From positions 806,001-870,000 of the forward strand of contig NZ_RJSG01000002.1 of the NCBI RefSeq assembly GCF_003725775.1: DNA of 64,000 nt. Reading direction: 5' to 3'. The notes beneath the pieces are model-generated. The model saw only the letters and a program-made list of their open reading frames with translations, searched no databases and was not told the origin of the DNA. This document shows, piece by piece, positions 21,520 to 32,839 of this stretch (positions within the stretch are counted from its first letter, which is position 1; each line of letters begins with the position of its first letter). The DNA comes from Nocardioides marmorisolisilvae. Lineage in GTDB: Bacteria > Actinomycetota > Actinomycetes > Propionibacteriales > Nocardioidaceae. Made by a program: the position numbers and the translations under genes.

Positions 21520-22465
21520 GTTCCAGGAACGCGACCACGCGCTCGAACGCCTCGGCGCCTGCCGGGGTCCCGAGCCACGTCTGGTACTCGTGGAAGCAGG
21601 GCGCGGCCTCGTCGCCGGGGTAGAACTCCTCGACGGCCACTTCGAGCTCGTGGAGGCGCTGTGCCATCGGCGGGGTCTGGCGCCGGAACAGCGGGTCCTG
21701 GTTCCCGCCGGACAGGAACGTCGGCGGGAAGTCGGCGGTCACCTTGTCGACGACCGTCATCTCGGCGCACACCGGGGAGTGCTGCCAGTGCCGGCTGCGG
21801 GTGACCGACCACATCGCCGATTCCAGGACCGCCTCGAACATCCGGTCGCTGTCGTCCAGCCCGACCGGGTCGTAGATGCCGCAGAACAGCACCAGCCCGC
21901 GCAACGGCGAGGTGCCCGAGACCGCGAGCTCGCTGACGATCTGAGCGCCGACCGAGTTGCCGGCGAGCACGATCCGCTCCGGGTCGAGGTCGAGCTCGGC
22001 TGCGTGCTCGCGCAGGTGGTTCAGCGCCGCGCGGACTGCGTCGGGGGCGGCCGGGTACCGGACCCGAGGCGCCAGCGGGTAGTTGACCGCGGCGACGGCG
22101 AACCCGCGCGCGGCCAGCATCTCGCCGTACGGGAGCACGTCGCGCTTGTCGCCGAAGTGCCAGCCACCGCCGTGCACCCAGACGACGAGCGGGTGCGGGC
22201 CGGGCCGGTCAGGAACGGCGAGGTCGAAGCGGTCGAACCGTCCTGGCCCGTAGGACAGGTCGGTCCTCGACGTCCATCCGGCCGCCGGCACCCGACGGCG
22301 CAGGTCGGCCGTCGTGATCGCGTTGGTCGCCTGGGAGGAGAGCCGGAACAGGCGCAGGCTGATCGCCGGTGGACACCAGCGCTGCGGCTTGAACCGGACC
22401 AGGACGCGGACGAGGAAGGTGGCCAGTACGGCGACCCCGAGATGTGCTGCACGGCTGATGCTCAC
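21503..22465 (-). CDS. Alpha/beta hydrolase, hormone-sensitive-lipase-like esterase
   Basis: This 320-residue hydrolase has a hydrophobic N-terminal segment (HLGVAVLATFLVRVLVRF) that may anchor or export it. HGGGWHFGD is the oxyanion motif, GNSVGA holds the nucleophilic Ser, GGNQDPLF supplies the Asp and FHEYQ the His. That set and the spacing match the HSL / alpha/beta hydrolase fold-3 group, which cleaves short acyl esters. GTG 22465 is chosen since the hydrophobic segment begins there; no Shine-Dalgarno is evident. The substrate is unknown; its place next to the steroid-like operon may be meaningful. Confidence 0.88.
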   Translation of the reverse strand: MSISRAAHLGVAVLATFLVRVLVRFKPQRWCPPAISLRLFRLSSQATNAITTADLRRRVPAAGWTSRTDLSYGPGRFDRFDLAVPDRPGPHPLVVWVHGGGWHFGDKRDVLPYGEMLAARGFAVAAVNYPLAPRVRYPAAPDAVRAALNHLREHAAELDLDPERIVLAGNSVGAQIVSELAVSGTSPLRGLVLFCGIYDPVGLDDSDRMFEAVLESAMWSVTRSRHWQHSPVCAEMTVVDKVTADFPPTFLSGGNQDPLFRRQTPPMAQRLHELEVAVEEFYPGDEAAPCFHEYQTWLGTPAGAEAFERVVAFLERNLGS

Positions 22466-22491
22466 GCAGGGCAGCGTGCCACGAGATCGAC

Positions 22492-23001
22492 CTACTGACG
22501 ACCGAAGTCGATGGTGTTCCAGGTGACGCCGTAGGCCCACGAGGACCCGATGCCGGCGTTGCGCAGGTTGCAGTTCTCGATGTTCGCGCGGTGCGGCGCG
22601 CTGTGCATCCACAGCGTGTAGGTCGCGTACGGACCCTTGGTGCCCTCAGCCAGGTTCTCGGCCAGCCACCGCCACGGCGTGTAGCCGGCGTTGGTGATCC
22701 GGGTGGCCAGCGAGGGCTCCCGCGAGAGCTGGTGCGAGACCTCGTGGGCGGCGATCATCCGGCTGGTGTGCTGCCGGGCGGCGTACGCCAGCGTCGAGCG
22801 GTAGCTCAGCGCGGAGCATCCGATCGCGGTACGTCGGCGGTTGATCATGCCCAGGAGATCGGACTCGAACTTGGTCGGAGCCGAGACCGCAGTGGTCCGG
22901 GCCGAGGTCTGCGTGGTCGCAGACCGGGCAGAAGCGGGCATAGCGCTCGTCAGAACGAGCAGGCCCAGAAGGAGCGACGTACCCCACGCGCGTCGATGCA
23001 T
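22492..23001 (-). CDS. Secreted CAP (SCP/PR-1) domain protein
   Basis: This 169-residue exported protein has a signal peptide (MHRRAWGTSLLLGLLVLTSA, cleavage near PASA-RS) and one CAP domain. The domain marks are LLGMINRRRTAIGC, YAARQHTSRMIAA, HQLSREP, WRWLAENLAEG, WMHSAPHRANIENC and WNTIDFG. The two His and the Glu of the CAP cavity appear to be present, and two Cys could form a disulfide. Bacterial CAP proteins are extracellular and mostly uncharacterised. ATG 23001 begins the signal peptide. The upstream minus-strand region to 23088 is locally AT-rich, which suits a promoter. Confidence 0.88.
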   Translation of the reverse strand: MHRRAWGTSLLLGLLVLTSAMPASARSATTQTSARTTAVSAPTKFESDLLGMINRRRTAIGCSALSYRSTLAYAARQHTSRMIAAHEVSHQLSREPSLATRITNAGYTPWRWLAENLAEGTKGPYATYTLWMHSAPHRANIENCNLRNAGIGSSWAYGVTWNTIDFGRQ

Positions 23002-23074
23002 GCGCACCACTGTGGCGAATGTTGCTGGGGGTGCGCAACGGATTCGGGACAATTAGGCAAAAGGAACTACTAAC

Positions 23075-23098
23075 TACGCGGTTGGTATTTACCGCGTA
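23075..23098 (-). terminator. Hairpin over the end of the DPM1-like gene
   Basis: TACGCGGT (23075-23082) pairs perfectly with ACCGCGTA (23091-23098) around an 8-base loop. It spans the TAA stop of the DPM1-like gene at 23089-23091 and lies in a locally AT-rich patch, with adjacent T-rich sequence on the minus strand. Confidence 0.5.
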
Positions 23099-23868
23099 TT
23101 CAGCAGGTCTCGGTCTCTTCCGACAGACGGAACCGCGGCCGGCCGCTCGCGCAGCTCGGCGAGCCTCCACTGCAGCGCGCGGCGCAGCGCCTCGCGAGCG
23201 ATCGGGCCGGACATCTTCGACGTCCCGGCGGTGCGGTCGGTGAAGGTGATCGGCACCTCGACGATCCGCAGACCGCGCCGGTGCGCCCGCCAGGTGTTCT
23301 CGATCTGGAAGGCGTAGCCGCTCGACTCGCTGGCGAGCACCTCGATGACGAGCAGCGCGTCGCGTCGGAACGCCTTGAAACCAGCGGTGTTGTCGCGCAC
23401 GCCGGTGCCGAGAACGGCACGGACGTAGACGTTGCCACCGCGGGAGAGCAGCCGCCGGTGCAGACCCCAGTTGTCGACCGCGCCGCCCGGCACGTAGCGC
23501 GAACCGACCGCGACGTCGGCCTCGCCCAGCGCTTCGAACAGAGCGGGCAGGCGCCCCGGCGGGTGGGACAGGTCGGCGTCCATCTGCGCGATCTGGTGGT
23601 AGTCCTCGTTCAGCGCCCAGGCGAAGCCGGCACGGTACGCCGCACCGAGCCCGTTCTTCTCCGGGCGGACCAGCAGGTGCACCGAGGACCCGTACGCCGG
23701 GTGCGAGCGCACCAGGTCGGCGGTGCCGTCGGGGCTGCTGTCGTCGACGACCAGGATGTCCACGCCCGGAGCGGCGCGCAGCACGGCGTCCAGGGCGGTG
23801 GTGATCGTCTCGGCCTCCTGGTAGGTCGGCATCACGACCAGGCGGCGTACGTGGGGCGTCATCGTCAT
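23089..23868 (-). CDS. DPM1-like polyprenol-phosphate glycosyltransferase (GT2)
   Basis: This 259-residue GT-A fold enzyme resembles dolichol/polyprenol phosphate mannose synthases, which charge a lipid phosphate with mannose. Motifs: VVMPTYQEAETI, ILVVDDSSPDGTADLV, IAQMDADLSHPP (metal-binding DxD), VAVGSRYVPGG, DNTAGFKAFRR and GYAFQIE, in the usual order. No membrane segment follows, as in mycobacterial Ppm1 domain 2. It lies 28 bases downstream of the GT39-like gene, a natural partner that uses such lipid-linked sugars. Confidence 0.9.
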   Translation of the reverse strand: MTMTPHVRRLVVMPTYQEAETITTALDAVLRAAPGVDILVVDDSSPDGTADLVRSHPAYGSSVHLLVRPEKNGLGAAYRAGFAWALNEDYHQIAQMDADLSHPPGRLPALFEALGEADVAVGSRYVPGGAVDNWGLHRRLLSRGGNVYVRAVLGTGVRDNTAGFKAFRRDALLVIEVLASESSGYAFQIENTWRAHRRGLRIVEVPITFTDRTAGTSKMSGPIAREALRRALQWRLAELRERPAAVPSVGRDRDLLNTR

Positions 23869-23896
23869 CTCTTCTCGGTTGTTCTCGGATCGAAGG

Positions 23897-25432
23897 TCAG
23901 GGGAGGTTCGGCAGCAACGTGCCGCCGGTGCAGGTCCGGTCCTGGGTGGGCACGGCGCGGTGCACGGTGTCGAGCAGGTAGATCGAGCGGCCGCAGATCC
24001 GGCTCACGAGCTTGTAGCGCTGGATGATCAGCGCGGCCGTGCCGGTGGTGTGCAGCCGCTGCTTGAAGCTGTCGCCGTGCACGACGATCCAGGTCGGCGC
24101 GCTCGGTCCGGCGAGCAGGCCGCGCAACAGCGTCAGGTCGGGATCGAGTCCGCGCGACGGGATGCTCCACAGGTAGGGATACGGCGAGGTGAGCCCGCTG
24201 TTACGCAGGATGTCCGCGTCGCCGAACGCGAGCACGAGGGTGTCGCCCGGCTGGGCGACGCTCCTGACCGCGTCGCCGACGGTCGTCCCCGGGGTGGCCG
24301 TCGGGTGTGCGACCACGCTGCCGGTCGCGATGATCGCGGACGCGGCGACCAGAGCCGTGGCTGCACGGATCACCCGAGGCGCGGCCAGCGACGTGGCGCC
24401 AGCGGCGAGGGCGACGGCCGGGGCGCTCTGGATCAGGTAGTGCAGCCAATAGCTGCCGCCGGCGAAGACCGACGCTGCGTCGAAGACGAGCACGACGGCC
24501 AGGGCCGCCACGATCGCGGGTTGCCGTGACCGCCGGATGCCGAAGAGGGCGAAGGCGACGAGCAGCAGTGGGACGAACGACCACGTGAACGCGTCGACGA
24601 GCTTCTCCAGGCGGATGCCCGACGCGTGGGCCGAGCCCTGCGCGATCACGTGGGCAGCGGTGATCCGGAAGGGGTAGGTGGCCTGGTAGATGTCTCCGGG
24701 CGACGAGCCGTGCGCCAACGCCCAGAGCATCACCACGGCGTAGCCGGCCACGAAGCCGGCGCCGGCGAACAGGATGCTGTCGACCAGGTCGCGACCCTTC
24801 AGCCGGTGGGTGCGCCAGGCGACGATCCAGCAGATCGCGGCGAAGATCACGACGTCGGCCATGTTCTGCTTGATCAGCAGGGCCGCGACGGCGGCTGCTC
24901 CGGTGAACAGCGCTGCGAGCCGCGAGCGCAGCTGCTCGTCGGTGTGGAAGACCTCGACCGCGGCCCGGATGCCCAGGGCGATGAACGGCGCCGCGAGCAG
25001 CTCGCCGTTGACGTCGACCGCGCCGTAGAGCGGCGAGAGCAGCAGCGCCGCCGCCACTACGACGGACCAGTTCGCGGCGCGGCGTCCGAACGCGACCCGG
25101 GCGGTGTCGGCGACCAGAGCGGCGGTCGCGACTGCGGCGACCATGCCGATGACCCGCAGCGCTCCCAGACCGCCGAGCAGGTCCGCGATCCGGTAGATCA
25201 CCAGCAGCAGCGGTGGGCGGTCCACCCAGTAGTTTCCGTAGAGCGAGGTGCCGCCGGCGTGCCACTGGTTCGCGACGACCAGGAACCCGCCCTCGTCGGG
25301 GGAGCCGCCCTGGCGGAACTCGAGGAGACGGCCGATGGCCAGCAGGCCGAGCACCACCGGCAGGGTGGGCACGGTCCGGACCCGTTCCACGAGGCGACGG
25401 GTCGGTTGGAGCACTTCGGCGGTCACGGTCAC
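23897..25432 (-). CDS. GT39-superfamily (PMT/ArnT-like) membrane glycosyltransferase
   Basis: This is a roughly 511-residue polytopic protein with about ten hydrophobic segments. The first loop has SPDEGGFLVVANQWHAGGTSLYGNYWVDRPPLLL (quoted in part), in which the acidic DE pair and the YWVDRPP stretch match the ArnT/PMT-type glycosyltransferase loop that holds the catalytic Asp. A soluble C-terminal part of about 130 residues follows. It probably moves a sugar from a polyprenyl phosphate donor, made by the next gene, to a surface acceptor. I chose GTG 25432, with AACTGT six bases upstream, over in-frame starts at 25426 and 25459. The tandem repeats at 25450-25504 are just upstream. Confidence 0.82.
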   Translation of the reverse strand: MTVTAEVLQPTRRLVERVRTVPTLPVVLGLLAIGRLLEFRQGGSPDEGGFLVVANQWHAGGTSLYGNYWVDRPPLLLVIYRIADLLGGLGALRVIGMVAAVATAALVADTARVAFGRRAANWSVVVAAALLLSPLYGAVDVNGELLAAPFIALGIRAAVEVFHTDEQLRSRLAALFTGAAAVAALLIKQNMADVVIFAAICWIVAWRTHRLKGRDLVDSILFAGAGFVAGYAVVMLWALAHGSSPGDIYQATYPFRITAAHVIAQGSAHASGIRLEKLVDAFTWSFVPLLLVAFALFGIRRSRQPAIVAALAVVLVFDAASVFAGGSYWLHYLIQSAPAVALAAGATSLAAPRVIRAATALVAASAIIATGSVVAHPTATPGTTVGDAVRSVAQPGDTLVLAFGDADILRNSGLTSPYPYLWSIPSRGLDPDLTLLRGLLAGPSAPTWIVVHGDSFKQRLHTTGTAALIIQRYKLVSRICGRSIYLLDTVHRAVPTQDRTCTGGTLLPNLP

Positions 25433-25449
25433 AAACTGACAGTTCCCCG

Positions 25450-25504
25450 CTGAACCCAACCTGAACGCCTTCCGACGTCCATCGCGCGTTCAGGTGACCG
25501 TCAG
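25450..25504. promoter_or_regulatory. Two pairs of 11-bp-spaced repeats upstream of the GT39-like gene
   Basis: CTGAAC at 25450-25455 and again at 25461-25466 are 11 bp apart. In the other orientation TCAG at 25490 (inside GTTCAGG) and at 25501 are also 11 bp apart. The first pair lies 18 bases before the chosen GTG, between the -10 and -35 positions. The same hexamer and spacing occur before the response regulator gene. Confidence 0.5.
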
Positions 25505-25529
25505 ACAGTGATCAGTTTCGACGGAAGGA

Positions 25530-26885
25530 TCAGTCGTCCCCGGGCGCCATCGGAAGCCGCACCTCGAACCGGGCGCCACCGTCCGCCGCGTCCTCGATCC
25601 GGACCGAACCGCCGTGCTCGTGCACGATCGAGGCGACGATCGCCAGACCGAGCCCACTGCCGCCGTCGTCGCGGGCGCGCGCCTCGTCCAGACGCACGAA
25701 ACGCTCGAAGACCCGGGCGCGGTCAGCAGCCGCGATGCCGGAACCGTCGTCCTCGACCACCAGGGTCGCGGTTCCGCCGCCCTGGTGCAGCCCGATCCGG
25801 ACGACACCCGAGGCGTGCCTGACCGCGTTGTCGAGCAGGTTGCGGATGACCTGGGCCAGCAGGACCGGGTTGCCGATGGTGCGTCCGGCGCCGACGTCGG
25901 ACACGTCGAGAGTGACGCTGCCGGCCTTGTCGCGCTGGCGGGACACCTCGGTGAAGACCAGGTCGTCCAGGTCGACCTGCTCGTGCGGAGCGTCCGTCCG
26001 GTTCTCGATGCGGGCCAGCGTGAGCAGCGCCGAGACCAGGCCCTCGAGGCGGGCGCTCTCGGCGAGCACGTCGGCGGCCAGCTCCTCGGTGCTGATCCGT
26101 TCCGGGTGGCTCTGGCTGATCTCCGCGGCCTGCCGGATCACGGCCAGCGGAGAGCGGAGCTCGTGCGAGGCGTCGGAGACGAACTGGCGCTGGAGTCGCT
26201 GTCCGTCCTCGATCCGGTCGAGCATCTCGTTCAGGGTCCGGGCCAGGCGCGGGATCTCGTCGTCACCCTCAGGCAGGGCCAGGCGGTCCGGCAGGTGCGC
26301 GGCGTTGATCTTGTTCGCCTGCTGGCGCATCACCTCGACCGGGCGGAGCGCCCGGCCGACGCTGAACCAGATGATCCAGGCCAGCGCGGCGACGGTCAGC
26401 GGCACCGAGACGGCCAGCACTCCGGCCGCCTCCGCCCGGGTCTCGTCGCGCTGCTCGGTCGATCGGCCGACGATGACCAGCCGTACCCCTTGCTCGTCCG
26501 CAGCCCGCAGGGCGACCACCGTGAACTTGTCGTGCTCACCGGGGACGACCTGCGACTTGTGCACCCCCGGGCTGGTGAGCAGCGGCACGGTGAGGCGTGC
26601 GGAGTGGTCGCTGGCGATCACGGTGCCGTGCGCGTCGAGCAGCTGGACGACCACGTCGTTGCGCCCCGTGGTGGCGGCCTCGGCGGGGCTCACCCCGGTC
26701 TTGAGCTGCGCGACGATCGACTGCGCGTCCTGCTGTGCGGAGTTGATCAGGCTGTTGCTGATGGAGTGGCTGAGGGCGAGCACCAGGACCACCGAGCCGA
26801 GCGAGAGCACCAGCAGCACGAACAGCGTGGCCAGTCCGGTCACCCGGGCCCGGGTCGAGGCGCTGATCCGCTCGAGCAGCCTCAC
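25530..26885 (-). CDS. Sensor histidine kinase, OmpR-partner type
   Basis: This 451-residue sensor has a transmembrane helix at about 22-40, an extracytoplasmic domain of about 120 residues, a second helix at about 155-176, a HAMP domain (LRPVEVMRQQANKIN), then HisKA with the phospho-acceptor His241 in SDASHELRSPL. The ATPase domain shows the N box LLDNAVRHA, G1 VEDDGSGI, F box FERFVRLDEARARD and G2 GSGLGLAIV. It autophosphorylates and passes phosphate to the regulator whose gene it overlaps by 4 bases. The sensed signal is unknown. Tandem repeats lie just past its 3' end. Confidence 0.95.
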   Translation of the reverse strand: MRLLERISASTRARVTGLATLFVLLVLSLGSVVLVLALSHSISNSLINSAQQDAQSIVAQLKTGVSPAEAATTGRNDVVVQLLDAHGTVIASDHSARLTVPLLTSPGVHKSQVVPGEHDKFTVVALRAADEQGVRLVIVGRSTEQRDETRAEAAGVLAVSVPLTVAALAWIIWFSVGRALRPVEVMRQQANKINAAHLPDRLALPEGDDEIPRLARTLNEMLDRIEDGQRLQRQFVSDASHELRSPLAVIRQAAEISQSHPERISTEELAADVLAESARLEGLVSALLTLARIENRTDAPHEQVDLDDLVFTEVSRQRDKAGSVTLDVSDVGAGRTIGNPVLLAQVIRNLLDNAVRHASGVVRIGLHQGGGTATLVVEDDGSGIAAADRARVFERFVRLDEARARDDGGSGLGLAIVASIVHEHGGSVRIEDAADGGARFEVRLPMAPGDD

Positions 26886-27571
26886 GCGCCGCTCGCTCCG
26901 GGCGCGCCGCCGAGCCGGTAGCCGCTGCCGCGCAGGGTCTGGATGTCGTCGCGGCCGAACGGCTTGTCGATCTTGCGGCGCAGCCGCCCGATGTAGACCT
27001 CCACGATGTTGGGATCGCCCTCGTAGGCGTAGTCCCAGACGTTCTCGATGATGTCGGCCTTGGTGACGACGGTGCCGTCACGGCGCATCAGGAACTCCAG
27101 CAGCGAGAACTCCCGCGAGGTGAGGCTGACCTCGGCTCCGGCACGGGTCACGGTCTTGCTGGCCGGGTCCAGACTGAGGTCGCCGACGCTCAGCACCGTC
27201 GGGCGCTCCGTGACACCGCGGCGCAGCAACGAGCGCAGGCGGGCCAGCAGCACCACGAATGAGAACGGCTTGGTGACGTAGTCGTCCGCCCCGGTGTCCA
27301 GCGCCTCGACCTGGTCCCAGTCGCCGTCCTTGGCGGTGAGCATCAGGATCGGCGTCCAGTTCTCCTCGGCGCGCAACGTCTCGCACACCTTGTAGCCGTT
27401 CATCACCGGCAGCATGATGTCGAGCAGGATCGCGTCGTACGCGTTCTCCCGGGCGTACCAGAGCCCCTCGCCTCCGTCGTGCGCGACGTCGACGGCGAAG
27501 CCCTCGGCCTCGAGGCCGGTACGCAGGTTCGCAGCGAGGCGCTTCTCGTCCTCGACGACCAGGATCCGCAT
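26882..27571 (-). CDS. OmpR/PhoB-family response regulator
   Basis: This 229-residue regulator has a receiver domain with VVEDE at 5-9, the phospho-acceptor Asp51 in LLDIMLP, Thr in LTAKD and Lys in TKPFS, and a winged-helix DNA-binding domain from about 130 (LTSREFSLLEFLMRR, VEVYIGRLRRKID, LRGSGYRLG). It would bind direct repeats in the promoters it controls. ATG 27571 has CAGACT seven bases upstream and no Shine-Dalgarno, so the message is probably leaderless. GTTCAGG repeats at 27614-27631 would sit around -44 to -61, a fitting place for autoregulation. Confidence 0.95.
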   Translation of the reverse strand: MRILVVEDEKRLAANLRTGLEAEGFAVDVAHDGGEGLWYARENAYDAILLDIMLPVMNGYKVCETLRAEENWTPILMLTAKDGDWDQVEALDTGADDYVTKPFSFVVLLARLRSLLRRGVTERPTVLSVGDLSLDPASKTVTRAGAEVSLTSREFSLLEFLMRRDGTVVTKADIIENVWDYAYEGDPNIVEVYIGRLRRKIDKPFGRDDIQTLRGSGYRLGGAPGASGA

Positions 27572-27613
27572 GGGCGCCAGTCTGGCACCCCGCCCGAACG
27601 CCGCGACAGCAGC

Positions 27614-27631
27614 GTTCAGGCGGGGTTCAGG
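27614..27631. promoter_or_regulatory. GTTCAGG direct repeat upstream of the response regulator gene
   Basis: GTTCAGG at 27614-27620 and 27625-27631 are identical and start 11 bp apart. They lie in the 64-base gap between the Ig-repeat gene and the response regulator, about 30 bases upstream of its proposed -10 box. This is the clearest copy of the element and the likely autoregulatory site. Confidence 0.6.
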
Positions 27632-27635
27632 TCGA

Positions 27636-29867
27636 TCACGGGGTCGGCGCGGCCTTCGAGTTCAGGCTGAAGGCCTTGGTGTTGCTGGTCGAACCCTTGG
27701 TGTACTTCGCGATGAAGATCTCCGGGTCCGGGAAGGTGGGCGTCCCGCTGATCACGCCGGTGCTCGCGTTCAGGGTGAGGCCCAGCGGCAGGCTGCCGTA
27801 GGTGATCGACCAGGTGCCGCCGGTCGGCGTGGCCGACAGGGTGGTCGTGTACGGCGTGCCGACGGTCGCGTCCGGCAGCTGGGAGGCCGTGCTGATCACC
27901 GGCGAGCCCGGGTCGGAGACGTGCAGCAGGTAGGCCTGCTTGTCCGAGGCGCCGGTGGCGGTCTCGGTGAACGTCACCGTGAAGCCGTAGTCACCGGCCG
28001 CGGTCGGGGTGCCGGCGAGCAGGCCGCCCGAGGACAGCGTGATCCCGTCCGGCAGGAAGCCGGCGGTCTGCTCGAAGGTGCCGGCCAGGCCGGTCTTCTG
28101 CAGCTGCTGGCTGTACGCCGAGCCGGTGGTGCCGTCCGGGACCGAGGTCGTCGTGATCACCGGGGCGATGATGTTCAGCGACAGGCTGGCGGTGGAGTAG
28201 TTGCCCGAGTCGGTCTCCGTGAAGGCGACGTAGATCGGGTACACGCCACCGGTGGTCGGCGTACCGGAGATCTCTCCGGTGTTCTCGTCCAGGGTCAGGC
28301 CGTCCGGCAGCTCGTAGGACGACCAGGTGCCGTCGTCGCCGGTCTTGGTCAGCGTCACCGAGTACGCCTGGCCGACGTGCGCGTCCGGCAGCGAGGTGGT
28401 GGTCACCTTCGGGCCCGGGTCGACGTAGATGGCGAACGTCTTGCTGACCGAGTGGCCGCTGCTGGTCTCGGTGAACTTCACCGTGAACCCGAAGCTGCCC
28501 GGCGTCGTCGGGGTTCCGGAGAACGCGCCGGTGGCACCGTCGAGCGTGATGCCCGGCGGCAGGTTGCCCGCGGTCTTCGACCAGGTGCCGGCGCCGCCGG
28601 TCTTGGCCAGCGTCGCCGAGTACGGGGCGCCCTTGCTGGCGGTGGGCAGCGAGGTGGTCGTGATCGTCGGGTAGCCCGGCGGCACCGAACCGGCGTTCAG
28701 GTGCAGCGCGTAGCCCTTCGTGGCGACGGTGCCGGTCGCGGTCTCGGTGAACCCGACGTAGACCGAGTAGTCACCCGAGACGGCCGGGTTGCCGGAGATC
28801 TCACCGGTGGTCGGGTTCAGGGCGAGACCCTCGGGAAGACCGAGCTGCGACCAGGTGCCCGCGCCGCCGTTCTCGGTCAGCGTCACCGAGTACGGGGTGC
28901 CCTGGGTGCCGCTCGGCAGCGTGGCCGTGGTGATCGCCAGCGCCGCGCCGTTGATCGTCAGGCTCAGCGCCTTGAAGGCGGTCCGGCCGGTCGAGGTCTC
29001 GGTGAAGGTCGGGTAGACCCCGAAGGTGCCGACCACGGTCGGGGTGCCGGAGATCGTGCCGGTCGCGCTGTTCAGGCTCAGGCCCGACGGCAGGGTGTTG
29101 GCCGGGACCGACCAGGTGCCGGCCTTGCCGGAGTGGGTCAGCGTCGTCGTGTACGCCACGGCGCGGGTAGCGGCCGGGAGCGTGGTCGGGCTGGTGATCG
29201 TCGGCGGCGGCGTAACGAGCAGCGTCAGCGCCTGGGTGTCGGACAGGGAGTCCGCCGTGGTCGTGAACTTGACCGTGAAGGACGCGGTGCCGCCGGCGGT
29301 GGGGGTGCCGGTCAGCGCTCCGGTGCTCGCGTTCAGGGTGATCCCGGCCGGCAGCGCACCGGCAGAGATCGACCAGGTGCCGGCGCCGCCGGTCTTGGCC
29401 AGCGTCGCCGAGTACGCGACGCCCTTGTCGCCGTCGGGCAGCGAGGTGGTCGTGATCACCGGGGTGTTCGGGTTCGCGCCGAGCGAGGTCACGTTCACGG
29501 TGCGCGAGTACGCGGTGGCGAGGCTGCCGGTGGCGGGAGCCACGGTGCGCAGGGTGTAGGTGCCCGCCGTCTCGTACATGGTGCCCTTGACGCTGTAGGC
29601 GCCGCCGCTGGTGGTCGTCGTCGAGCTGACGTTCACCCAGCTGGCGCCGTTCTTGCGCTGCAGGCGGACGGTCTGGCCGGAGCCGGTGTGGGTCACGGTG
29701 CCGGTGTAGGTGATCTTGACGCCGCCGTACGCCGAGGTCGGACTCGGGGTGATCGAGATGCTCCGCGCCGTGGCAGCGTGAGCGGGCCCGATCAGACCCG
29801 TCGTGAGGACGAGCAGCCCTGCCAGGACTGCGATCGCCGAGGTGTACCTGATCCGCAAGGAGCTCAT
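27636..29867 (-). CDS. Large secreted protein with seven putative Ig-like (He_PIG) repeats
   Basis: This 743-residue exported protein has a signal peptide ending in GPAHA, then an Ig-like domain of about 100 residues (ITPSPTSAYGGVKITYTG, VRLQRKNGASWVNV), then seven repeats of 75-90 residues. Each repeat starts with a P-x-ITTTSLPDG-type strand, continues with YSATLAKTGGAGTWS, then LPxGLTLNxxTGxISGTP and a TFTET strand, the putative Ig (He_PIG) pattern of bacterial surface proteins. No sortase signal or C-terminal helix follows, so it is probably released or loosely bound. ATG 29867 follows GAAGG. It is a paralogue of the next gene upstream. Adhesion or wall binding is a guess from the fold. 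Confidence 0.88.
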   Translation of the reverse strand: MSSLRIRYTSAIAVLAGLLVLTTGLIGPAHAATARSISITPSPTSAYGGVKITYTGTVTHTGSGQTVRLQRKNGASWVNVSSTTTTSGGAYSVKGTMYETAGTYTLRTVAPATGSLATAYSRTVNVTSLGANPNTPVITTTSLPDGDKGVAYSATLAKTGGAGTWSISAGALPAGITLNASTGALTGTPTAGGTASFTVKFTTTADSLSDTQALTLLVTPPPTITSPTTLPAATRAVAYTTTLTHSGKAGTWSVPANTLPSGLSLNSATGTISGTPTVVGTFGVYPTFTETSTGRTAFKALSLTINGAALAITTATLPSGTQGTPYSVTLTENGGAGTWSQLGLPEGLALNPTTGEISGNPAVSGDYSVYVGFTETATGTVATKGYALHLNAGSVPPGYPTITTTSLPTASKGAPYSATLAKTGGAGTWSKTAGNLPPGITLDGATGAFSGTPTTPGSFGFTVKFTETSSGHSVSKTFAIYVDPGPKVTTTSLPDAHVGQAYSVTLTKTGDDGTWSSYELPDGLTLDENTGEISGTPTTGGVYPIYVAFTETDSGNYSTASLSLNIIAPVITTTSVPDGTTGSAYSQQLQKTGLAGTFEQTAGFLPDGITLSSGGLLAGTPTAAGDYGFTVTFTETATGASDKQAYLLHVSDPGSPVISTASQLPDATVGTPYTTTLSATPTGGTWSITYGSLPLGLTLNASTGVISGTPTFPDPEIFIAKYTKGSTSNTKAFSLNSKAAPTP

Positions 29868-29981
29868 CGCCCAACCTTCTTCAACCGAGAGGAGGGCACG
29901 CCCCACGCGCACCCGCACCCGACGCTAGGGCGAACGACCCTGATTGGGACCGTTATTGGATGGCTTTCTGCTGAGAATTGC

Positions 29982-30015
29982 CGGAAGGCCCAGGAGGTTT
30001 GTCCTGGGCCTTCCG
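29982..30015 (-). terminator. Hairpin after the five-repeat Ig protein gene
   Basis: A perfect 14-bp stem (29982-29995 with 30002-30015) closes a 6-base loop, 23 bases past the stop of the gene at 30039. It separates the two paralogues, so each probably has its own promoter; that of the second lies in 29868-29981. Confidence 0.75.
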
Positions 30016-30038
30016 ATTCGGGCGTTTTCCCGGGTGGT

Positions 30039-31745
30039 TCAGCCGGCTGGAGCGTCGGCGACGTTGAGGCTGAACGCCTTCGTGTTGCTCGTCGCTCCCT
30101 TGGTGTACTTCGCGATGAAGATCGCGTTCTCCGCGAACTCCGGAGTCCCGCTGATCTCACCGGTGGCCGGGTCCAGGGTCAGTCCGACGGGCAGGCTGCC
30201 GTAGACGATCGACCAGGTGCCACCGGTCGGGGTGGCGGCCAGCGTGGTGCTGTACGCCGTCCCGACCTCGCCGTCGGGGAGCTGGTTCGGCGTGCTGATC
30301 ACCGGCGAGCCCGGGTCGGAGACGTGCAGCAGGTAGACCTGGTTGTCGCTGGCCCCGGTCGAGGTCTCGGTGAAGGTCACGGTGAAGCCGTAGTCACCGG
30401 CCTGGGTCGGCGTACCGGCGAGCAGTCCGCCGGACGACAGCGTGATGCCGGGCGGCAGGTTGCCCTGCTTCACCGACCAGGTACCGGCCAGGCCGGTCTT
30501 CGCCAGCTGCTGGCTGTACGCCGTCCCGGTGGTGCCGTCGGGAACGCTGGTCGTGGTGATCACCGGAGCCGCGATGTGCAGCGCGAAGCCCTTGGTGACG
30601 AGGTCCCCGGTCGCGGTCTCGGTGAAGCCGATGAAGATCGCGTAGTCGCCGCCGGTGGTCGGCGTACCGGAGAGCGTGCCGGTGTTCTCGTCGAGCGTCA
30701 GGCCGTCCGGCAGGTCGAGCGAGGACCAGGTACCCGCGCCGCCGGTCTTGGTGAACGTGACGGAGTACGCCTGTCCGACGTTGCCGGCCGGCAGGGGCGA
30801 GGACGTCGTGATGGCCAGCGCCGCGCCGTTCACGGTCAGGCTGAGAGCCTTGAACGCGGTCCGGCCGGTGGAGGTCTCGGTGAACGTCGGGTAGATCCCG
30901 AAGGTGCCGGACGCGGTCGGGGTGCCGTGCAGCGACCCGGTGTCGGCGTCGAGCTCGAGACCCGCCGGCAGGCTGTTGTCGGGGACCGACCAGGTGCCGG
31001 CGTGACCGGTGTGGGTCAGCGTGGTCGAGTACGGGGACAGCCGCGTTGCCGCCGGCAGCGTCGTCGGCGAGGTGATCGTCGGGTCGGGTGTCACGACCAG
31101 GGTCAGCGCCTGGGTGTCCGACAGGCCGCCCGAGGTCTCAGTGTACTTCACGGTGAAGTGCGTGGTGCCACCGGCGGTCGGGTTGCCGGCGAGCTGGCCG
31201 GTGTCCGCGTCGAGGTCGATGCCGGCGGGCAGGTCACCCGAGGAGACCGACCAGGTGCCGGGGTCGCCGTTGACCTGGAGAGTCGTCGAGTAGTCGATGC
31301 CCTTGTCGCCCTCCGGGAGCGAGGTCGTGGTGATCACCGGGATGTTCGGGTTCACGCCGAGCGACTTCACGCTGATCGTGCGCGAGTAGGCGGTGGCGAG
31401 GGTGCTGGTCTTCGGAGCGACGGTGCGCATCTTGTAGGTGCCCGCCGTGGAGTACATGGTCGCCTTGAGCGAGTAGGCGCCGCCGGTCTTGGTCGTCGTG
31501 CTGACGACGTTGATCCAGGAGCTGCCGTTCCAGCGCTGCAACCGCACCGTCTTGCCGGACCCGGTGTGCGTCACCGATCCGGAGTAGGTGACCTTGGTGC
31601 CGCCGTACGTCGAGGTCGGGCTCGCCTTGATGTAGACCGTGCGCGCCGTCAACGCCTGCGCCGGGCCGACCAGCCCGACGACGACGAGCGTCGCGCCCAG
31701 CACGACTGCGAGCGCTGACCAGCGCCTGTACCCCAGAGAAGCCAT
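30039..31745 (-). CDS. Secreted protein with five putative Ig-like (He_PIG) repeats
   Basis: This 568-residue paralogue of the downstream Ig-repeat protein has a signal peptide (RWSALAVVLGATLVVVGLVG, end PAQA-L), the same N-terminal Ig-like domain (ASPTSTYGGTKVTYSG) and five repeats that correspond to repeats 1, 2, 3, 6 and 7 of the neighbour. Its third repeat looks mosaic: its start and end match neighbour repeat 3, while its middle (PDGLTLDENTGTLSGTPTTGG) matches neighbour repeat 5. The C-terminal KYTKGATSNTKAFSLN is nearly identical in both. ATG 31745 follows AAGGA. The role is unknown; the pair sits next to a two-component system. Confidence 0.88.
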   Translation of the reverse strand: MASLGYRRWSALAVVLGATLVVVGLVGPAQALTARTVYIKASPTSTYGGTKVTYSGSVTHTGSGKTVRLQRWNGSSWINVVSTTTKTGGAYSLKATMYSTAGTYKMRTVAPKTSTLATAYSRTISVKSLGVNPNIPVITTTSLPEGDKGIDYSTTLQVNGDPGTWSVSSGDLPAGIDLDADTGQLAGNPTAGGTTHFTVKYTETSGGLSDTQALTLVVTPDPTITSPTTLPAATRLSPYSTTLTHTGHAGTWSVPDNSLPAGLELDADTGSLHGTPTASGTFGIYPTFTETSTGRTAFKALSLTVNGAALAITTSSPLPAGNVGQAYSVTFTKTGGAGTWSSLDLPDGLTLDENTGTLSGTPTTGGDYAIFIGFTETATGDLVTKGFALHIAAPVITTTSVPDGTTGTAYSQQLAKTGLAGTWSVKQGNLPPGITLSSGGLLAGTPTQAGDYGFTVTFTETSTGASDNQVYLLHVSDPGSPVISTPNQLPDGEVGTAYSTTLAATPTGGTWSIVYGSLPVGLTLDPATGEISGTPEFAENAIFIAKYTKGATSNTKAFSLNVADAPAG

Positions 31746-31775
31746 GAGAGTTCCAATCCTTGTGCCTGCAGAGAG

Positions 31776-31802
31776 GGAGGGCGTGTGCAGGGCACGCTCT
31801 CC
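31776..31802 (-). terminator. Hairpin after the nitronate monooxygenase gene
   Basis: GGAGGGCGTG (31776-31785) pairs with CACGCTCTCC (31793-31802), one G-U pair, around a 7-base loop, 26 bases past the minus-strand stop at 31828. It isolates this gene from the Ig-repeat gene. Confidence 0.55.
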
Positions 31803-31827
31803 GCGACACTAAGCGGAACCGGCGTGA

Positions 31828-32748
31828 CTAGGAAGCACCCAGCCGGTTTCGGGCCGTGTCCAGCGCGGCCGTGCAGCCCGACCACATCTCCTTGATCACC
31901 TGCGAGACGGGCAGCACCGTGTCGATCCGGGAGGAGACCTGGCCGGTGTTGGCGACGCTGATGTCCATGTCGCCACCGAAGTAGAGGTCGGTGATCTGGC
32001 CCAGCAGCTTGACGTCCTGACCCTCGGTGAGGCGCTCGGTGATCGCGTTGCGCAGCACCCGCATGGTCGGGTTGCCGGGAACGCTGATGAGCACGGTTCC
32101 GTCGTCGCCCGCGGCGACGATCGCGTCCTTGAAGTTGCCGTGCACGGTCGCTTCCTCGGTCGCGAGCATCCGGGTGCCCATCTGCACACCCTCGGCGCCG
32201 AGCACGAAGGCCGCCGCCATCGAGGTGGCGTCGCAGATGCCGCCCGCCGCGATGATCGGCAGGTCGGTGCGGGACGCGACCAGGGGGAGCAGCACCATCG
32301 TCGAGGCGCCGAGCGCACCCTTGAAGCCGCCGCCCTCGACGCCCTCGACGACCAGGCCGTCGACGCCGGCGTCGATCGCCTTCTGGGCAGCGCGCATCGA
32401 GCCGACGACTTGGAAGACCGTCATGCCGGCGTCGTGCAGACGGTCGGTGAACAGGGCCGGGTCGCCGGCCGACGAGGCGACGTAGGTGATGCCGGCCTCG
32501 GCGATGGTCTCCACGATCGAGGGGTCGTTCTTCCAGCCCTGGATCATCAGGTTCGCGCCGACCGGCTTGTCGGTCAGCTCGCGGACCCGCGCCAGGTCCT
32601 CACGGCCCTGCGGGGAGAGCGTCTCGATCACGCCCATGCCGCCGGCCTCGGAGACGGCGGCCGCCAGGGGAGCGTTGGCGATGAACGTCATCGGAGCCTG
32701 GACGATCGGGATCTCGACGCCGAGGAGCTGCTGTACGCGGTTGGTCAC
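31828..32748 (-). CDS. Nitronate monooxygenase (NPD-like) family flavoprotein
   Basis: This 306-residue FMN-dependent TIM barrel belongs to the 2-nitropropane dioxygenase family. Motifs: VQAPMTFIANAPLAAAVSEAGGMGVI, VGANLMIQG, GVDGLVVEGVEGGGFKG (FMN phosphate region) and PIIAAGGICDATSMAAAFVLGAEGVQMGTRML (parts quoted). Such enzymes oxidise nitronates, but some actinobacterial members take part in other pathways; the steroid-ring hydroxylase IpdC is one relative. The catalytic His of classical nitronate oxidation is expected near the EGxEGGG loop and is not obvious here, so the reaction is open. GTG 32748 is the start. Confidence 0.85.
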   Translation of the reverse strand: MTNRVQQLLGVEIPIVQAPMTFIANAPLAAAVSEAGGMGVIETLSPQGREDLARVRELTDKPVGANLMIQGWKNDPSIVETIAEAGITYVASSAGDPALFTDRLHDAGMTVFQVVGSMRAAQKAIDAGVDGLVVEGVEGGGFKGALGASTMVLLPLVASRTDLPIIAAGGICDATSMAAAFVLGAEGVQMGTRMLATEEATVHGNFKDAIVAAGDDGTVLISVPGNPTMRVLRNAITERLTEGQDVKLLGQITDLYFGGDMDISVANTGQVSSRIDTVLPVSQVIKEMWSGCTAALDTARNRLGAS

Positions 32749-32839
32749 GCAGCACAGCGTGGCAGATCTGCCGGGTGCACGATCAGGGAGACCAGCACCA
32801 GGACGCGTCCGGTGTCCGGGTCCTGGGTAGTCCTGCGAC

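Follow-up and report, generated by a model that had tools for sequence, protein, structure and literature searches.

A tandem 11-bp TCAG repeat as the probable operator of an OmpR/PhoB-type two-component system beside a GT39-like glycosyltransferase gene in Nocardioides

Introduction

Short direct repeats flank a two-component system in Nocardioides marmorisolisilvae, and the locus raises the question of which protein, if any, reads them. In the 64,000-nucleotide stretch of DNA analyzed here (the window), a first-pass annotation had placed GTTCAGG at 27614 and 27625 before an OmpR-type regulator gene, and CTGAAC at 25450 and 25461, together with a second TCAG pair at 25490 and 25501, in the gap between the kinase gene and a GT39-like gene. 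All of these positions were verified, and an additional TCAG at 25512 stands in 11-bp register with those at 25490 and 25501. Direct repeats of about 11 bp, the kind used by OmpR/PhoB-type regulators, are present at the candidate target promoters. Switches of this sort are ordinary and known; this one was not found described, and open-licence full texts yielded no operator of this kind for this group.

Components and gene order of the locus

The regulator (26882..27571, minus strand; 229 aa) belongs to the OmpR family and carries the receiver and Trans_reg_C domains typical of OmpR/PhoB-type proteins (Pfam PF00072, 101.5 bits; PF00486, 92.6 bits); it lies below the cut-off of every model among its best 25 NCBIfam models. 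Pfam, hydropathy and orthologue alignment assign to the histidine kinase (25530..26885, minus strand) two transmembrane segments, an extracytoplasmic sensor of about 105 aa, and HAMP, HisKA and HATPase_c domains. By eye, the sensor domain contains no Cys and a few scattered His, which, like the model cut-offs given below, speaks against a copper or metal system. The next gene (23897..25426, minus strand) encodes a GT39/ArnT-like GT-C membrane glycosyltransferase, as judged from an AlphaFold2 model, fold search and alignment. Its start was re-set to the GTG at 25426-25424, inside the mechanical open reading frame 23897-25459, because a 23-nt spacing between repeat and start is common to the orthologues; an alternative in-frame GTG lies 6 nt upstream. 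The protein may belong to the GT39 protein O-mannosyltransferases, but its PMT_2 match is weak (E 4e-4; 21.0 bits vs a gathering score of 26.1) and ArnT outranks Pmt in the fold search. As the AlphaFold2 model (pLDDT 88.6; 30 sequences) matches ArnT best among solved structures (5f15/5ezm, TM 0.56-0.62), the predicted GT-C fold is well supported; an Asp-Glu pair (D44-E45), as found in the acidic loop of GT-C enzymes, is invariant in the 30 sequences. The downstream neighbour encodes a DPM1-like GT2 glycosyltransferase (23089..23868, minus strand; PF00535, 111.2 bits). Two He_PIG (Ig-like) repeat proteins (27636-29918 and 30039-31745), each with an N-terminal hydrophobic stretch and with Ser+Thr contents of 30% and 28%, adjoin the two-component system and are possible substrates of glycosylation; sequence similar to the He_PIG genes is also found upstream in genome G005.

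The order regulator, kinase, GT39-like gene is shared by eight genomes, namely that of the window and G016, G012, G017, G005 (with a 1084-bp gap), G006, G011 and G004. A DPM1-like gene adjoins the glycosyltransferase gene in G016, G012, G017 and G006; in G017 a DPM1-like gene occurs on either side of the two-component system (L060 3085-3804 and 7516-8223). The post-kinase gene is also GT39-like at locus L188 (G074). In G010 the window-type regulator and kinase reside on another contig than the glycosyltransferase gene (L064 17524-17799 and L111 1-770), perhaps owing to an insertion or an assembly break, and the post-kinase sequence appears by eye to be of HNH/DUF222 type. In G001, G002, G003 and G009 the repeat precedes a post-kinase gene whose product is a small secreted protein instead of a glycosyltransferase, and Pfam recognized PepSY in the one from G002.

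Rarity and conservation of the repeat

The repeats are not a product of chance. When the genome of 3,828,516 bases was searched for repeat units, as had been suggested at first pass, the exact pair CTGAA-n6-CTGAA proved rare (five matches), and two of the five are the gaps already noted. With at most one mismatch there are 78 matches, vs 48 in a backward control. CTGAA pairs at spacings n1 to n16 give 62 matches genome-wide: five at n6, eight at the nine other frame-breaking spacings together (0-4 each) and 49 at the six in-frame spacings, the last as expected from coding sequence. Extending the pair (hereafter the box) by an xAxxxT hexamer 11 bp on leaves two exact matches, one of them the promoter of the glycosyltransferase gene, and with one mismatch eight, vs three in the backward control. 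Within the 64-kb window TCAG/CTGA pairs occur six times at period 11, four of these in the two gaps; period 21 gives seven and the rest 0-3. The genome's remaining three exact sites precede a gene for a 492-aa membrane protein, a P450 gene and, by about 175 bp, a gene on contig C2 (L028) that resembles gyrB by eye. The membrane-protein site recurs in exact form in none of three orthologues (G017 has TTCAG-n6-TTCGG), and the P450 site, which is the other exact composite match, is kept in none of 24 related loci.

Before the glycosyltransferase gene, the coding (minus) strand reads CTGACGGTCACCTGAA ... TTCAGGTTGGGTTCAG-n11-CAGTTT-n6-GTG. The proposed operator, identified by orthologue comparison, is TTCAG-GTTGGG-TTCAG (25450..25465), and the -10-like hexamer CAGTTT (25433..25438) follows the box after 11 bp and precedes the start codon by 6 bp. 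A second, inverted array on the plus strand (25489..25515) comprises TTCAG at 25489, GTCAG at 25500 and ATCAG at 25511, in 11-bp steps; an inverted CTGAC-n6-CTGAA pair is likewise present in G017 and G005. TTCAG-n6-TTCAG was sought over the 450 bp that precede residue 45 at 80 GT39-like loci (for L134 the region is nearly the whole locus), eight of which carry, upstream and on the same strand, a regulator at least 75% identical to that of the window. The exact box occurs in seven of these eight vs one of the other 72, and with at most one mismatch in eight of eight vs seven of 72. The sole exact box among the 72 belongs to L111, the glycosyltransferase gene of G010, whose sequence contains L078. 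Taking the eight loci, the window and L111 as ten orthologous promoters, the box is present in all, exact in nine and with one mismatch in one. In nine promoters exactly 23 nt separate the box from the start codon that follows, whereas L117 (G074), also boxed, has no start at this distance. The conservation upstream of glycosyltransferase orthologues on which the earlier proposal depended is therefore found. Two-component control of the GT39-like gene, also part of that proposal, is supported by a conserved candidate operator before this gene, but does not extend to several relatives, which carry another post-kinase gene.

Before the regulator gene, the box is reversed and reads CCTGAAC-CCCG-CCTGAAC on the coding (minus) strand (27614..27631); the gap as a whole is CCTGAACCCCGCCTGAAC, with a -10-like hexamer CAGACT (27579..27584) 30 bp past the last CTGAA. 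In the window subclade this box has the opposite orientation to the boxes of the target promoters, and 29-30 bp separate it from the -10-like hexamer downstream. Among nine near regulator orthologues (79-100% identity, window included), the reversed box is found at about -60 to -62 in five (window, G016, G012, G017 and G006) and is absent in G005, G011, G010 and G004. Across 25 loci of the genus, CTGA recurs at period 11 within 150 bp upstream of the regulator in nine and TCAG in seven, vs 0-2 for any of the other periods between 6 and 22. In the wider family, forward TCAG pairs at period 11 occur within 150 bp upstream of 19 of 20 regulator loci, all other periods from 6 to 22 contribute one pair in total, and dinucleotide shuffles give a mean of 0.05 (maximum 1). 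These loci represent 20 further family genomes (17 of one other genus, three of three more), were taken as the best-scoring regulator proteins previously unfetched, and include close relatives of one another. Behind their kinase genes TCAG recurs at period 11 in 16 of 20 and also at period 10 in 15 of 20, forming arrays of three units. Outside the family, at 21 class-level loci, period 11 is seen upstream for TCAG in five and for CTGA in two, and TCAG pairs lie behind the kinase in four. The first-pass annotation had regarded a lack of conservation upstream of orthologues as fatal to its idea; what was found is a box at 10 of 10 glycosyltransferase promoters and at 19 of 20 regulator loci of the wider family. 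Conservation before the regulator thus holds in the wider family and is partial in the window subclade, where the box is reversed and confined to five of nine near orthologues.

Promoter layout and related boxes

An xAxxxT hexamer stands exactly 11 bp past the last unit in 67 of 77 promoters: 8 of 10 window-type GT39-like, 9 of 9 GT39-like with a divergent regulator, 25 of 32 regulator and 25 of 26 post-kinase promoters. Offset 10 accounts for five regulator promoters, and any other offset within 4-17 for at most two per group. The regulator and post-kinase sets were drawn from 32 loci. Four of these, L208-L210 and L224, were chosen after their boxes had been seen, and the other 17 out-of-family loci are excluded; a post-kinase site was obtained from 26 of the 32. 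L117 and L188 represent one promoter that enters two of the sets, and G016 and G012 are nearly identical.

Similar boxes also occur away from the window-type regulator. At ten loci the GT39-like gene diverges from another ('type B') regulator, 33-36% identical to that of the window in nine cases and 44% in the tenth, and nine of the ten show CAGG at period 11 within GTCAGGT-like units. Boxes resembling GTCAGGT-n4-GTCAGGT lie between the different OmpR-type regulator and divergent GT39-like genes at L118-L123, L125, L127 and L128. At the 61 GT39-like loci with neither arrangement (L134 left out), period 11 is found for CAGG in 16 and TCAG in nine, vs 0-5 and 0-1 at other periods. In the scoring of loci of this kind, with training site L111 left out and with the region of L134 again nearly the whole locus, 13 of 61 reach at least 12, compared with 0/80 reversed, 1/80 coding and 4/80 shuffled controls (best of five each). 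A DedA-like gene elsewhere in the genome, so named from its sequence (L241, G000:C3:536001), has GTCAG-n6-TTCAG-n11-TACGCT-n6-GTG, and TCAG-n7-TCAG occurs upstream of this gene in 11 of 20 genus loci (L241-L260), window genome included, in nine of these at 37-39 bp before the start. G020, one of the genomes with a boxed DedA-like gene, has no match to the regulator at 1e-60. Because boxes at GT39-like and DedA-like genes occur without the window-type regulator, the box alone does not name its regulator, and some sites may be read by another one.

In the regulator tree, a period-11 TCAG or CTGA pair of the window's group lies upstream in 38 of 44 rows, vs five of the 26 others; the fork uniting the 44 rows has support 94/81, with some forks left open. 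In the sister group, 15 of 19 rows have CTGnGA-n5-CTGnGA upstream of their own genes, a motif present in 15 of 70 loci overall (shuffle mean 0.01). The sister regulators concerned are those of L215-L220, L225, L226, L228, L230, L231, L020, L021, L024 and L025.

Discussion

Because the repeat keeps a fixed and conserved place before the glycosyltransferase gene and, in relatives, before the regulator genes, it is very probably a docking site for a regulator, and we consider it probable that the adjacent OmpR/PhoB-type two-component system uses the 11-bp TCAG repeat as its operator. From its conservation, spacing, promoter geometry and gene order we infer the following mechanism. Two regulator molecules in head-to-tail arrangement would occupy (T/G)TCAG-n6-TTCAG; this box would substitute for a -35 element and recruit RNA polymerase to the xAxxxT -10 hexamer 11 bp downstream; and the GT39-like transcript would be leaderless, with the start codon as its 5′ end. 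PhoB class II promoters have a comparable layout of box and -10 element, and because the layout here resembles both these and SARP boxes, activation is likeliest: the promoter sequences show the layout in which a PhoB-type operator stands in for the -35 element and the promoter is leaderless. In SARP (AfsR) promoters, 11-bp direct repeats cover the -35 region and the 3′ repeat lies 8 bp from the -10 element (PMC10936776); the distance to the -10 element is fixed in both, being 11 bp here, where the regulator is a two-component one. In the wider family the identical layout before the regulator gene and before the post-kinase gene would allow autoactivation along with target activation. For the window itself, where the regulator box is inverted, lies 30 bp above the -10 hexamer and shares one unit with a hairpin, autoregulation is plausible and the autoactivation put forward at first pass a possibility.

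PmrA/BqsR-type sites of Gram-negative bacteria, TTAAG-n6-TTAAG, have the same 5-n6-5 geometry, with TTCAG here instead of TTAAG. The PHO box of Streptomyces PhoP, GTTCACC (PMC4415409), and the site GTTCACnnnnnGTTCaC described for PolR of Microlunatus phosphovorus (PMC6754071) are, like the box here, tandem 11-nt direct repeats for an OmpR/PhoB-type regulator. They share a GTTCA core, but read GTTCAC(C) where the box here reads (T/G)TCAG (PMC4415409, PMC6754071), and unlike in PHO systems there is no phosphate gene among the named neighbours. Identity with PhoP/PhoB was rejected (PhoB equivalog score 196.7 vs a cut-off of 296.2), as was a PHO box, since TTCAC pairs at period 11 occur in 0/79 GT39-like and 0/20 regulator upstream regions. 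Heavy-metal models are the best NCBIfam hits of both regulator and kinase, which recalls CopRS of Corynebacterium glutamicum; its 11-bp direct repeat TGAAGATTTnnTGAAGATTT, located between copR and a divergent neighbour, differs beyond TGAA as given in that report (PMC3140484). A CopR/CusR-type heavy-metal system was rejected at the model cut-offs (TIGR01387, 237 vs 279.2; TIGR01386, 205 vs 292.55). Streptomyces CutRS is likewise a two-component system for the cell envelope, and identity with CutR was rejected as its reported site is TAWATAAA (PMC12802291), not TTCAG-n6-TTCAG.

How firmly the box can be assigned to the adjacent regulator depends on the alternatives. That another OmpR-type regulator, either PhoP/PolR/RegX3-like (GTTCAC) or 'type B', reads a real box wholly or in part seems rather unlikely. 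The similarity of the PolR and PHO sites (PMC6754071, PMC4415409) would agree with it, as would GTCAGGT-type boxes at GT39-like and DedA-like promoters in loci or genomes lacking the window-type regulator and the one-mismatch boxes at six of the 72 other GT39-like loci; but the exact box tracks the window-type regulator, and the missing TTCAC pairs speak against a GTTCAC reader. For the pair before the regulator, the gap to the Ig-repeat gene offers another candidate, an 18-bp near-perfect hairpin (27587..27626) with 18-nt arms and a 4-nt loop (minimum free energy of the 71-nt stretch -45.5 kcal/mol, z -5.65), one arm of which wholly contains the unit 27614-27620. The pair in the window might then belong mainly to a terminator-like hairpin serving the upstream Ig-repeat gene and have no operator role, which we regard as unlikely: the repeat is kept at about -60/-49 in G016, G012, G017 and G006, yet no hairpin of this kind appears when G016, G017 and G006 are folded (z 0.60, -1.80 and 0.79), and the box of the glycosyltransferase gene is untouched by it. 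Simple scans of 22400-32800 for sigma-70 promoters and T-run terminators found none of either.

More generic readings fare worse. The TCAG units could be -35 elements of some sigma factor, with no regulator involved, as most of the promoters have a -10-like hexamer directly after them. A single -35/-10 pair is spaced by 16-18 bp, and from the hexamer such a spacing does not accommodate two units in strict 11-bp period whose ends are 11 and 22 bp away from it, and three-unit arrays with a 10/11 period also occur; this reading is very improbable. Chance is extremely unlikely as an explanation, for it could claim only the membrane-protein and P450 sites, which lack conservation, and is contradicted by conservation at the GT39-like and regulator loci, by the n11 hexamer geometry and by the regulator tree.

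The preferred reading, a box operated by the adjacent two-component system, supplies this two-component family with an operator sequence together with a promoter geometry and a list of candidate targets. The two-component family is present in 90 of the 245 genomes searched within the bacterial family (E<=1e-85), and operators differ between sister regulators, TTCAG in one group and CTGnGA in the other. A broader idea is possible, if on the improbable side: the design of tandem TCAG, n11, -10 hexamer and leaderless start may be kept on GT39-like (often plus DPM1-like) and DedA-like genes in Nocardioidaceae even where the adjacent regulator has switched from one distant subfamily to another; envelope glycosylation and carrier-lipid recycling would then form one regulon under interchangeable or cross-reading two-component systems. 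On the preferred reading, in the window subclade, where the post-kinase gene encodes a GT-C glycosyltransferase and a DPM1-like gene often comes next, an envelope signal would raise the transfer of a polyprenyl-phosphate-linked sugar; the surface glycosylation proposed at first pass would be one such output. Envelope sugar transfer would in this way be tied to a sensor.
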